Shown in pieces: positions 32,209 through 37,720 of a stretch of 64,000 nt of DNA (position 1 is the stretch's first letter; each line of letters starts with the position of its first letter). The DNA comes from Methanosarcina barkeri 3 (GTDB lineage Archaea > Halobacteriota > Methanosarcinia > Methanosarcinales > Methanosarcinaceae), in assembly GCF_000970305.1 (NCBI RefSeq), contig NZ_CP009517.1, forward strand, positions 2,790,001 to 2,854,000, written 5' to 3'. A program made the translations under genes and the position numbers. The notes under the pieces are model-generated. The model did no database searches. It saw nothing but the letters and a program-made list of their open reading frames with translations, and had not been told where the DNA came from.

Positions 32209-33294
32209 TCAACTCGCATTGGTTTTTTCCTTTGAGTTTTCCAGGAAAACATATATTATGCCACTATGAATTATAAAATATACTCCGGTTTCTGCATCAT
32301 AGATTACGCGTTCATTCATATCAACAGCAGCATCTACAAGCTCCTGGAGAGAAGATATCTCAACTCTAATAAGGAAATTTATATTTTCGGGAAGTTTACC
32401 TTTGCTGACAAGTTCCTTAAAAGGTAAACGTCTTTGTTCTATTTCCAACTTCTCGATATATGATGACTCAGTCTTTTTCATCTTTCTGCAGGAGAGAATA
32501 GTCCCTACAAGAACTATACTGAGCAGAAAAATAGGTAGTGGTTTTTTAATGCTTGACAGTGACGAGTCTTTCTGGACTCTAATCTTTTTATATAAAGCAG
32601 TACTTTCATTAAACTCCAGTTCTTCAGGCATCTGATAGTATGAAGAACCCATCACTAACGGTATAGCAAAATCTTTTGTGTTGTTGACATATTTTCCGTT
32701 AACTTGTCCTTCACAGTTGACACGAGTTATGATTTCTACTGTTGCCCCCTGTGGGTACTTGAGCTGGTCCTGCACACCTTTGACCATTGACTGTATTTCG
32801 GATACATTAATGGAAAATTTTTCGGTGATAGGCTCGTCATTTTCAATATCAACCGCTCTTTTAGACTTCAAAGGAAATTCTTTTTGCCAGAAGATTGTGT
32901 CTTCTTTTCCTTCTTCCTCAGCTACTTCTTTACTGGTTGCAACAATGACTGTCTCTCTTTTTACGCTGATATTAGCAGAATCCGTAGCTTTAAGGCGGTA
33001 TGTGAACGAAACATCAACAGTAGGGGATACTGCAAAAAAATACGCAGGCTTTCCCATTTCAAGTACAGTTCCGGTTGTATAAAGGGGATTAGACTTCGTT
33101 ACAGGCGCTGTATAAGTGTACGAGCCATACTGCGTATAGGAAGAAACTATTTTCTCCCTTTCTTCGTAAGCGTCCCCTGCATATGCTTCATAAGTCCAGA
33201 GCCCGGAAAAAATCATAATTACTCCGAATATAAGGATGAGTATTCGAAACCTATCAATTACTGAATTTTTAAGCTTAAGGAGTGCAATCTTCAG
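32209..33294 (-). CDS. DUF5305 membrane protein of the surface-fibre locus
   Basis: About 361 aa as extended. DUF5305 proteins occur beside SipW-type signal peptidases and TasA-like proteins in archaea. The first helix (RFRILILIFGVIMIFSGLWTYE) is needed as a membrane anchor, but the only canonical start (ATG 33216) cuts it in half. The frame stays open to a TAA at 33316, and a GGGGGT site (33306-33301) is followed by ATT (33297) and CTG (33294), the likely starts. The outer domain (to about residue 260) is beta-rich with a FWQKEFPL segment. A second helix (PLPIFLLSIVLVGTILS) precedes a cytoplasmic tail that may be a YjbH/peptidase-like assembly domain. Role inferred from context. Confidence 0.75.
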   Translation of the reverse strand: MKIALLKLKNSVIDRFRILILIFGVIMIFSGLWTYEAYAGDAYEEREKIVSSYTQYGSYTYTAPVTKSNPLYTTGTVLEMGKPAYFFAVSPTVDVSFTYRLKATDSANISVKRETVIVATSKEVAEEEGKEDTIFWQKEFPLKSKRAVDIENDEPITEKFSINVSEIQSMVKGVQDQLKYPQGATVEIITRVNCEGQVNGKYVNNTKDFAIPLVMGSSYYQMPEELEFNESTALYKKIRVQKDSSLSSIKKPLPIFLLSIVLVGTILSCRKMKKTESSYIEKLEIEQRRLPFKELVSKGKLPENINFLIRVEISSLQELVDAAVDMNERVIYDAETGVYFIIHSGIIYVFLENSKEKTNAS

Positions 33295-33705: not shown

Positions 33706-34737
33706 TTATCCCAGGTTGAGAGTCCTCTTACTCTGTGCAAGCAGCCAATGAATCAAGATCTTTTTTCTATGCGATCTAGCTCCCAATTTTCGGCACCAAA
33801 AGGGAGACAGAAGCAATGTAAAGGCTGATACATAAAGCAAGATACCGAAAGCAGTAGGGAGATAAGGACTTATTTCCGCAAGCTCAGTTATCCAGAAAAC
33901 CGGCAATATATAAGGTACTGTACTCAATTTTGCAGGGGTATTTCCAGGTGCAATAACCAGAGTTGAGTTGGCTGGAGGAATAACTCCGTACCAGTGCTCA
34001 ATAGCAAACTTTTGCTCCGGATTATCGGGTGTGAAAACATACACAGATGGTAGAATTCCAGAGTTTTCTACTTTGTACTCTTTCTCCAGGACTACAGGTC
34101 CATTTCCTTCCAGATTTTGCAAGAATATGCCTGTAAAAACAAACCCACTTATAAAAATAAGCGCAGCCAACCGTATTCCGTCGAGTACATAAGAAGTGCG
34201 CCTGGCAACTTTTTTCTGCTCTCGTTCGAATTTTCGAGCTCGAGCTGGAGAGCTGTACTTAAGAATATTCTTTGATTCATCGAGGATTATCAGGCCTGCA
34301 GGCAGAATAACAGTCAGGAAAAACAGATTCGTATTTTTGGAGGCTTCAGGCAAATGTCCGGCAAATGGAATAACAAAAGTCAGTTTTCCCACAACATCGG
34401 ATGCAGGGACTTTAAAGTCATCTATTTCCTCATTTGCATCCCCCTTCGTCTGGAAGACACGTTCTTTTCCTTCCTGTATATTTACAATCCTGTGCGTTAC
34501 AAGACTGTCAGCTTTCTCTCCAGTACCCCGGAAAACTACAACATCCCCTACCGTAAGTTCATCCGTACTGATCGATTTTGCAACTATCATATCTCCTGGC
34601 AGTACTAGCGGCGTCATACTCCCGCTCAGCACAATCAGGGCTTGCGATGAACCTGTAAAAAATGGAATTAAGGAATTGACAAGAAACACTGCAATCAGAA
34701 AGATAATTGTAGCCTGTATAATTTCTCTCTTCTTCAT
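33706..34737 (-). CDS. Signal peptidase I, S26B/SipW type, with large C-terminal extension
   Basis: 343 aa. The catalytic serine is in VLSGSMTPLVLPGDMIVAK (about residues 36-54); archaeal/eukaryal-type enzymes use His instead of Lys, here DSLVTHRIV. A GDANEEIDDFKVPASDVVGK segment completes the core. The N-terminal anchor helix precedes it, and residues about 130-330 add two or three more helices around a beta domain (NSGILPSVYVFTPDNPE). It likely cleaves the signals of the neighbouring TasA-like proteins. Start 16 bases after the second stop codon of the upstream gene, with GGGTGA as ribosome-binding site, so these genes are translated together. Confidence 0.88.
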   Translation of the reverse strand: MKKREIIQATIIFLIAVFLVNSLIPFFTGSSQALIVLSGSMTPLVLPGDMIVAKSISTDELTVGDVVVFRGTGEKADSLVTHRIVNIQEGKERVFQTKGDANEEIDDFKVPASDVVGKLTFVIPFAGHLPEASKNTNLFFLTVILPAGLIILDESKNILKYSSPARARKFEREQKKVARRTSYVLDGIRLAALIFISGFVFTGIFLQNLEGNGPVVLEKEYKVENSGILPSVYVFTPDNPEQKFAIEHWYGVIPPANSTLVIAPGNTPAKLSTVPYILPVFWITELAEISPYLPTAFGILLYVSAFTLLLSPFWCRKLGARSHRKKILIHWLLAQSKRTLNLG

Positions 34738-34753
34738 GTTTCATTTTCACCCG

Positions 34754-35806
34754 CTAATTCTCAAGAGGAGTTTCCTGTGTGCCAGGGTTCTTTTCTTCAG
34801 TATCTATTACAGAAGTGTCCGAACCCTGACTTTCCATAGTGCCTGTCACAGATTCCTGGCTATCTACAGACCCTTCCTATGTTTGACTATCTTCCAGTTT
34901 TCGACTATCTTCATGTGCTTGACCATCTTCTATGTCTATTACAGGTGATTCCTGTTCTACAGGTGACTCCTGTTCTTTCTGGCCCTCTTCATCTTGCCTC
35001 TCTTCTACATCCGTTACGGAAATTTTCTGGCCATCATAGCCCTCTTCTTCGGAGTCTTCAACAGCTGGTTCCTTTGCATCCTGGCTCTCTTCTTTAGTAT
35101 CGATTGTAGAAGCTTCTGGAGTATTCTGATTTTCTTCTTCATTTGTTACAGGTTCCTGACGGTCTACAGATTCTGCCTGCGTTTGACTATCTTCTGCTTC
35201 TGTCAAAGGTACTTCCTGCTCAACTTCCTGTTCGTTCTGACTGGACTCTTGATTCGTCTTAGAGATTTCCGTAACATCCGAATGATATTTCGGACCCGTT
35301 ACAAAACTCTTCACAGATCCATCGTTCATAACAATGTTAATGGTGAACGGAGACAGATTCGAAACACTGCTGTCAAAACAGAGATCAAGTTTTGCAGAGG
35401 ATCCGGCTTCAAGCAGATAATCCTCCCCATCCACAATTTCCCCTACTGACCGGCTACCGCTAAAGAACTCGTTCCCGTCTATGCCTATACTCGTTATATG
35501 GCTTGAACCCTCTAGAGTAGAGTCCCACCATACCTGAAACTTATCAATAGTCACATTCTGGGTATCACTTACATCAAGAGTGATTCCTTGAAGTTTTTCG
35601 CCGTTTCCGGTGAGTTTGCTGTCGGATACAACAAGGAAGCTGGATTCGTTGTTCCACGTACCTCCCTTTATTGTGTTTCCGGTACTGTACTCCATGTCAC
35701 TGAAGTAAGCAAAGGTATTGTCTGTCAAACAGGCGAATGTAATTTCAGATAAAACGAGAGGGGTTAACATCATGCCAAAAAGTATTATTTTATCGAACGC
35801 CCTCAT
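34754..35806 (-). CDS. TasA-like secreted protein with acidic repeat tail and in-frame UAG
   Basis: The conventional frame ends at TAG 34877-34879 after 309 residues, but the same frame continues for 40 more codons to TAG at 34754-34756. The N-terminus has a signal helix and a SipW-type mature start (FAYFSDMEYSTGNTIKGGTW) close to the TasA/CalY pattern. A beta domain follows to about residue 170, then an acidic tail of imperfect repeats. One reads SQTQAESVDRQEPVTNEE and on to STIDTKEESQ; the other SQT-UAG-EGSVDSQESVTGTME and on to SVIDTEEKNP, so UAG replaces Gln. Methanosarcina can read UAG as pyrrolysine. Readthrough would add the tail and bring the stop 16 bases from the next gene. Confidence 0.75.
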
Positions 35807-35836: not shown

Positions 35837-36331
35837 TTATCTCTCTATTAATCGAATAATCTCACGTAACTCATGCACGATCAGTGTCAGTGCAGGGAAG
35901 ATTACAAGCAATAAGAGTCCCTTAGAAGTTCCTGCAAAGTGAACAAGTTCACCCAGGTATGGGATCTTGAAATACATAACTCCTATCACGTCTTCAGGAG
36001 TGACAATGTAGCCGTCTGCCTTTGTGTATGCGTCCCCTTTTGTCCTGTACCCCCCGATCTCCACTCCCACTATCCGGTGTGTGACTATAAATCTCTGATT
36101 TTCTTCAAATGTATGATAATAAGACACTATATCCCCAACCACAGGCTGCGTTTTTGTAGTGTCAACCACAATTATATCACTGGATGTTATTGTGGGCTCC
36201 ATACTGCTTCCTGTCACAGTCATGAACTTGACTGGACCTGTAGGAACCATGGTTGCAACTATAGGTACAAGGATGACGATAAATATCAACCCGATAAAAA
36301 ACTTTATTATTTTCATATACTCTCGTGCCAA
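35837..36331 (-). CDS. Signal peptidase I, compact SipW type
   Basis: 164 aa. N-terminal anchor (FFIGLIFIVILVPIVATMV), catalytic Ser in TVTGSSMEPTITSSDIIVVD, catalytic His in RFIVTHRIVGVEIGGYRTKGD, a box E-like TPEDVIGVMYFKIPYLG and a C-terminal helix LLLLVIFPALTLIVHELREI. Small size typical of the archaeal/eukaryal group. A second signal peptidase in the same cluster suggests that the two process different substrates or act together. A start at the internal Met (MKIIKFF) is possible. Confidence 0.88.
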   Translation of the reverse strand: MAREYMKIIKFFIGLIFIVILVPIVATMVPTGPVKFMTVTGSSMEPTITSSDIIVVDTTKTQPVVGDIVSYYHTFEENQRFIVTHRIVGVEIGGYRTKGDAYTKADGYIVTPEDVIGVMYFKIPYLGELVHFAGTSKGLLLLVIFPALTLIVHELREIIRLIER

Positions 36332-36425: not shown

Positions 36426-37052
36426 TTATTTCAGGTCAAACTTCATTGTCAATATACATTCATCTCCCTGGTAGTCATTTGGAGCACTTTCATCGAAACG
36501 TACTTCCATATCGAAGTCTATGGGATAAGTCTGCCCAGGTCCTGGCGCATCCAGATTATCCAGCGTTATGCCATTGAGATCTGCAAGGTCAATGTAACCG
36601 TTTACGTTTCTGTCAGTGATAACAGATGAAACCCCGTCTTTAACAAGATTTCCAGAACTTACTCCCGATCCATATTTAATATATGACATTGATACAACTT
36701 TCAAGTACTCATCCATCCCATCAGCACCATTGAGTGTATCGCTTTCTTCATTTGCTCCTGCTTCATAGCCGGGATCTCGACAAACAGTTGAGAATGCGAT
36801 CTCTACGTGATCTGCAACAGTTCCATTGTTGTGTAAGTTAAGCTGACCAGATTTATAGTCCCCAGGAACCATATTAGTGAGCGTCCACTCATGGTCAATG
36901 ATTGGACCATGATCCGTTATGTACAGATCCATTGTTCCAGCAGTAATTGTACTTCCTGAAGCTGTCTCAACATCTGTGAAAGATGCCCATGTACCTGCAG
37001 AAACTAGAAGAAGTACAAAAGAAATTAACAAAACTGAAGGTATCACTTTCAT
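36426..37052 (-). CDS. TasA/CalY-like secreted protein (SipW-dependent signal)
   Basis: 208 aa. Signal helix SVLLISFVLLLVSAG then TWASFTDVETASGSTITAGT, the conserved start of mature TasA/camelysin-family proteins, followed by DLYITDHGP. The jelly-roll beta domain contains VPGDYKSGQLNLHNNGTVADHVEI, as in the family. Family members polymerise into fibres by strand donation. It is secreted and processed by a SipW-type peptidase. Overlap with the next gene is absent (83-base gap), same strand. Confidence 0.85.
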   Translation of the reverse strand: MKVIPSVLLISFVLLLVSAGTWASFTDVETASGSTITAGTMDLYITDHGPIIDHEWTLTNMVPGDYKSGQLNLHNNGTVADHVEIAFSTVCRDPGYEAGANEESDTLNGADGMDEYLKVVSMSYIKYGSGVSSGNLVKDGVSSVITDRNVNGYIDLADLNGITLDNLDAPGPGQTYPIDFDMEVRFDESAPNDYQGDECILTMKFDLK

Positions 37053-37135: not shown

Positions 37136-37684
37136 TCACTGGTTGAGAGTAAATTCCAGGTCAAATTCTAAAATATCACTCTGAATCTCGTTGCCAGCAT
37201 CACTAACTGCATAATTAATGGTTAAAGTTTTTTCCTCAGCACCAGCAAGAGTTCCGAGATTTTCGTCAGAGAGACCTGCTATAGGTCCCTGGTAGAGAAG
37301 GGTCGCTCCATCATAAATTGATATAGTTATTGCACTACCAAGCTCACCATCAGCAGCAGTAGAATCAACTGCTTGTTCAGCATCATTCATACCATTTTCA
37401 TCTTCTACTATATTGGCAGAACTTACAACAAGGTTTCCACTAATAGTTCCAGCGTTTTTGACTGTAATAGTTCCTGCAGTACCTTGGGCATTAGGAGCGA
37501 CATCCCCGATACTAAAACCGGTAATTCCGTCTAAGCCATTTAGTTTGAGATCTAATGTTCCAGCTGTAAAAGTGTTTCCATCACTTGTTTCACTGTCACT
37601 GAATGCTGCCCATGTTCCAGCTCCTGCGACAGTTGCAACTACACCAATAATTAGCACGCTCAAAAGCATTTTCTTGTTAAGCAT
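37136..37684 (-). CDS. TasA/CalY-like major fibre subunit candidate
   Basis: 182 aa from the preferred Met (MLNKKMLLSVLIIGVVATV). The mature start is AGTWAAFSDSETSDGNTFTA then GTLDLKLNG, an almost perfect TasA/CalY signature. The remaining beta domain includes VKNAGTISGNLVVSSANI. First gene of the surface block, acidic, probably the main fibre subunit. The GGTGG site lies 7 bases before the ATG at 37684; the frame opens earlier with MIDQIGGKK, which is less likely. An array of about 108-bp repeats lies directly upstream. Confidence 0.87.
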   Translation of the reverse strand: MLNKKMLLSVLIIGVVATVAGAGTWAAFSDSETSDGNTFTAGTLDLKLNGLDGITGFSIGDVAPNAQGTAGTITVKNAGTISGNLVVSSANIVEDENGMNDAEQAVDSTAADGELGSAITISIYDGATLLYQGPIAGLSDENLGTLAGAEEKTLTINYAVSDAGNEIQSDILEFDLEFTLNQ

Positions 37685-37720
37685 TTTCTTTCCACCTATT
37701 TGATCAATCATATTATTGTC

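Follow-up and report, generated by a model that had tools for sequence, protein, structure and literature searches.

In a secreted-protein gene of Methanosarcina barkeri 3, codon 310 is an in-frame TAG where the two close orthologues have CAG (Gln), and the gene continues behind it for 40 intact codons in a host that carries the complete gene set for decoding UAG as pyrrolysine (Pyl). The comparisons described here, which start from a 64,000-nucleotide stretch of the genome (the window), make it probable that we are dealing with a recent, near-neutral change from CAG to UAG in a disordered acidic tail, and that the gene yields a terminated protein of 309 amino acids together with some of a 350-amino-acid protein containing Pyl.

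The full ancestral reading frame (34754..35806, minus strand), delimited from the frame itself, the orthologues, a model and codon usage, starts with the ATG at 35806 and runs through 309 codons to the TAG at 34877..34879 (minus strand) and from there through 40 further codons (34757..34876, minus strand) to the terminal stop at 34754..34756 (minus strand), which is again TAG, a point that the sequence-only reading preceding this analysis did not mention. That reading had correctly seen that the frame stays open for 40 codons past the first TAG. An open run of this length is by itself weak evidence of coding; about 10% of the ORFs ended by TAA or TGA also stay open for at least 40 codons past the stop. 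The extension is counted as real because of its homology and its codon usage, not because of the open run alone. Read in frame it has a codon-usage score of 0.26, much like the 0.27 of the remaining tail; the two alternative frames score 0.07 and −0.05. The alignment of the extension with an earlier internal repeat, also proposed from the letters only, was confirmed: there is an ungapped direct repeat of 51 nt with 80% identity, one copy of which (34844..34894, minus strand) contains the TAG, which faces CAG in the partner copy (35144-35194), a single C-to-T change. Apart from the TAG the gene is intact. It carries one in-frame tandem duplication of 18 nt (34940..34975, minus strand; EQESPV twice), which the other two orthologues lack. 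The tail of the protein lengthens and shortens by repeat units.

The orthologues compared are those of M. spelaei MC-15 (L015) and of the metagenome-assembled genome UBA11020 (L016), in which the gene order is the same as in the window; a search throughout the genus Methanosarcina found the repeat tail shared with these two only. Both have CAG at codon 310, followed by the same 40 codons (37 of 40 identical to those of the window gene in M. spelaei and 39 of 40 in UBA11020) and by TAG as stop in the corresponding position. It had been suggested that orthologues all ending at the TAG, with unrelated sequence after it, would speak against an extension; the opposite is seen. Since both orthologues have CAG and the same 40 codons, comparison of the three genes shows that the ancestral gene encoded the full-length tail and that the change to TAG occurred in the window lineage alone. 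No other change within the last 41 codons belongs to that lineage, the remaining differences lying on the other two branches. An attempt to estimate dN/dS over the extension had no power, there being four variable codons in total. Because the changes are so few, selection after the UAG is not measurable, and the extension appears to be too young to display either selection or decay.

In principle the TAG could be an error of sequencing or assembly, the true base being C, and it does rest on one base of one assembly. This is improbable: the genome (4.56 Mb) is one contig of 99.99% completeness, the change is a transition rather than an indel in a homopolymer, and elsewhere the gene is clean.

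Two observations concern the surroundings of the TAG. The tail before it is nearest to that of M. spelaei (2 of 120 codons differ, versus 21 to UBA11020; window positions 34650-34880 compared), whereas after the TAG and into the adjoining signal peptidase gene the window is nearer to UBA11020 (1 of 40 codons differing, versus 3 of 40 for M. spelaei). A recombination breakpoint near the TAG is possible. The ATG of that adjoining gene lies at 34737, 16 bases from the terminal TAG, and is preceded by GGGTGA at 34752-34747, exactly as had been claimed. This spacing was rejected as evidence for read-through because the full-length ancestor already had it. In the window gene a second read-through, at the terminal TAG, would lengthen the reading frame by 64 codons. 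In M. spelaei (L015:6033-6041) the terminal TAG shares its reading frame with the signal peptidase ORF downstream (TAG CGG GTG ... ATG AAG AAG), and a ribosome passing it would join the tail to the signal peptidase, whereas the window has the two in different frames.

The protein was initially taken for a TasA-like structural fibre protein, an assignment that is not supported. In a Pfam search it matched no family, the TasA/camelysin family (PF12389) included, above the cut-off; the TasA/camelysin-family proteins are two of its neighbours. It consists of a signal region, a beta-rich domain (approximately residues 30–175) and an acidic, Glu/Gln-rich repeat tail (residues 184–350), all within 34754..35806 (minus strand). 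The N-terminal signal region contains the motif FAYFSD..YS.GNT...GTW, as do the TasA-type neighbours. The structure model (mean pLDDT 45) is beta-rich at residues ~71–171 only, at low to moderate confidence, and Foldseek returned generic beta sandwiches, with no TasA among the matches listed. The tail before the TAG is 25% Glu and 13% Gln with a net charge of −35, and is predicted to be disordered. With the model for SipW-dependent signal peptides (TIGR04088, cut-off 19 bits) the window protein scores 9.9 bits, which is below the cut-off, and a relative (G006) 21.4 bits, which is above it; the protein family as a whole is likely to belong to this class.

The genes around it were assigned by family models and are all on the minus strand. 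Downstream lies an archaeal signal peptidase I with similarity to SipW (33706..34737) and upstream a second one (35837..36331), followed by two TasA/camelysin-family (PF12389) proteins with SipW-type signal peptides (36426..37052 and 37136..37711). The last gene of the conserved cluster, which is present also in both orthologous loci, encodes a DUF5305 protein (32209..33216). In this context, accessory protein of a SipW/TasA-type cluster is a more fitting description of the window protein than TasA. In this respect it resembles TapA of the tapA-sipW-tasA operon of Bacillus subtilis, likewise a secreted accessory protein encoded beside SipW- and TasA-type genes and likewise composed of a folded domain and an unstructured C-terminal region. 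This does not mean that the two are related in sequence: with the TapA model (TIGR04087, cut-off 80 bits) two relatives of the window protein score 12.7 and 15.3 bits (E = 0.07 and 0.011), which is not significant.

To judge from more distant Methanosarcina relatives, which end directly after the folded domain (L008/L013 and L009) or carry a shorter tail (L007), the protein can probably do without its final 41 residues. It is conceivable, if rather unlikely, that UAG is here simply a stop, that only the 309-residue protein is made and that the extension is a fresh remnant which has not yet decayed. Tail length varies freely among species, and, as no more than an analogy, in B. subtilis deletion of the unstructured C-terminal region of TapA leaves biofilm formation unchanged (PMC10151520). 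The gene's own last codon is a TAG that serves as stop, and TAA too trims C-termini between these genomes, for example at codon 399 of 411 (L151/L085) and at codon 143 of 150 (L044/L128). A total lack of read-through would be unexpected, however, in a host with the full Pyl system, which is known to suppress ordinary UAGs without special context.

That the host decodes UAG as Pyl, as had been supposed, is borne out by its genome, which judging by the orthologues is that of a Methanosarcina near M. spelaei. It contains pylT, the gene for tRNA-Pyl with a CTA anticodon (tRNA-Pyl(CUA)), PylS, PylB, PylC and PylD, all above their family cut-offs, and three copies of mtmB with an in-frame TAG. In MtmB, MtbB and MttB, Pyl is thought to be catalytic. 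These methyltransferases are like the window gene in having an in-frame UAG in the same genome, served by the same tRNA-Pyl; they differ from it in that their UAG is conserved, whereas that of the window gene is new and unconserved. TAG is the stop of about 4% of the long ORFs (11 of 265). A scan for coding on both sides of a TAG, covering 1.61 of the 4.56 Mb, found clear cases in mtmB (2), in an mttB-like and an mtbB-like gene (both named from their sequences by eye), in pcm, in a transposase-like frame and in the window gene; the remaining TAGs in the 1.61 Mb resemble ordinary stops. UAG is thus ambiguous in this genome, meaning stop or Pyl, because pyl genes and TAG-bearing methyltransferase genes are present while other TAGs act as ordinary stops. 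When coding was judged more strictly, continuation into coding-like sequence was seen for 4 of 33 TAG ends versus 15 of 804 TAA/TGA ends (Fisher p = 0.005), an excess that comes mostly from known or conserved cases. When premature TAG was compared with premature TAA/TGA between the window genome and M. spelaei, the approximately 157 matched genes gave too few clean events to reveal whether TAG is tolerated more readily than TAA or TGA.

Two in-frame TAGs outside the window gene deserve mention. At G000:C1:3082327 (minus strand) a TAG after about 100 codons is followed by an open frame of 302 codons, transposase-like by appearance; transposases of the UAG-bearing kind are mentioned in a review (PMC2933860). 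The HerA-like ATPase of M. spelaei (L135, G028:C24, minus strand, ~8435-6138) has a mid-gene TAG where the window genome (L091:7392-9704) has AAG (Lys), with about 168 codons of intact frame past it; the sequences at the site, GATAAG versus GAATAG, differ in two adjacent bases, and an error in the draft is possible.

The gene pcm, for protein-L-isoaspartate O-methyltransferase (L095:4549-5355, minus strand; G000:C1:2644549-2645355), was predicted to encode a Pyl protein in M. barkeri already in 2005 (Chaudhuri and Yeates, PMC1242214). The TAG is codon 192 of 269, and 11 Methanosarcina genomes (relatives L166-L171 and L173-L176) have it at this very position, others carrying Arg, Lys, Glu, Gly, Ser or Tyr. 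In the 11 genomes the mean dN/dS is ~0.09 over the 74–77 codons past the TAG versus 0.13 over the 100 codons before it, and a stop at codon 192 would cost more than a quarter of the enzyme. Because the UAG is kept in 11 genomes and purifying selection acts downstream of it, it is very likely that UAG outside the methylamine genes is productively read in this lineage. Like the window gene, pcm lies in the same genome, has its UAG outside methylamine metabolism and continues as coding sequence after it; unlike the window gene, whose UAG occurs in one genome only, it combines wide conservation with strong purifying selection. By these comparisons pcm is the stronger case, and provides strong evidence for conserved UAG read-through outside methylamine metabolism.

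For the window gene it could be argued that selection maintains Pyl at codon 310, or else a regulated balance between the short and the long protein linked to methylamine growth. The extension is intact, and the RNA past the UAG folds better than shuffled sequences (z = −3.6). This reading is nevertheless highly improbable. The UAG is present in one genome only, the Gln orthologues are otherwise the same, and the tail appears to be dispensable across the genus. The RNA structure was considered as a Pyl signal (PYLIS-like) and set aside: the stem, about 50 nt downstream, is formed by the CAG orthologues too and is hence apparently not linked to the UAG, and an Rfam search gave no match resembling a Pyl insertion element. 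The codon is not conserved, the final stop is again TAG, and most or all of the tail is missing from relatives in other species; a role for Pyl at this site is not evident from the sequences.

The near-neutral change to UAG that we consider probable would have proceeded as follows. A recent mutation turned CAG into TAG in the gene of a secreted surface-cluster protein, within the part that encodes its disordered C-terminal tail. When the gene is expressed, the majority of ribosomes probably terminate after codon 309, leaving LEDSQT as C-terminus, and a minority would insert Pyl by means of tRNA-Pyl(CUA) and thus complete the ancestral protein of 350 residues with Pyl310, from which the tryptic peptide LEDSQT-Pyl-EGSVDSQESVTGTMESQGSDTSVIDTEEK is predicted. 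The size of this minority (20–30%) is taken from a published reporter figure: according to a review, a UAG placed in a reporter gene is decoded by M. acetivorans as Pyl at ~20–30% and mostly terminates translation, and the PYLIS element is not essential for Pyl insertion (PMC2933860). The UAG would persist by neutral drift if it is nearly harmless both to lack the final 41 residues of the tail and to carry Pyl in it. Read-through at codon 310, its rate and its neutrality are what we infer from the gene comparisons and the published work. A point against this explanation is that the extension ends in TAG too: efficient general read-through would spoil the terminal stop as well.

There is a precedent in tRNA-His guanylyltransferase (Thg1) of M. 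acetivorans, which according to the same review carries a non-essential Pyl (Heinemann 2009, via PMC2933860). As described there, Thg1 is like the window gene in that the UAG occurs in one species and sense codons in its relatives, that the host has pyl genes and that Pyl is not evidently needed. The two differ in that Pyl was physically observed in Thg1, whereas in the window protein it is predicted from the gene, and in that the one is a site in an enzyme and the other a site in a probably dispensable disordered tail. Further UAG candidates were described as neutral drift in a survey from 2013 (PMC3639795).

A new mechanism is not indicated by the UAG of the window gene, which qualifies well as a candidate neutral UAG/Pyl site. 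It is very doubtful that the share of tails carrying Pyl and the last 40 residues in this surface-cluster protein depends on the supply of Pyl-tRNA; if it did, the archaeal cell surface would change with growth on methylamines. If the UAG is translated, one secreted, non-enzymatic protein would join the few Pyl proteins outside methylamine metabolism. What we have here is a sense-to-UAG change caught at its start, with the ancestral codon known, the last 41 codons otherwise unchanged on the branch and a host that decodes UAG, and it is relevant to the spread of UAG as a sense codon among Pyl-containing organisms and to the way in which UAG should be annotated in them.
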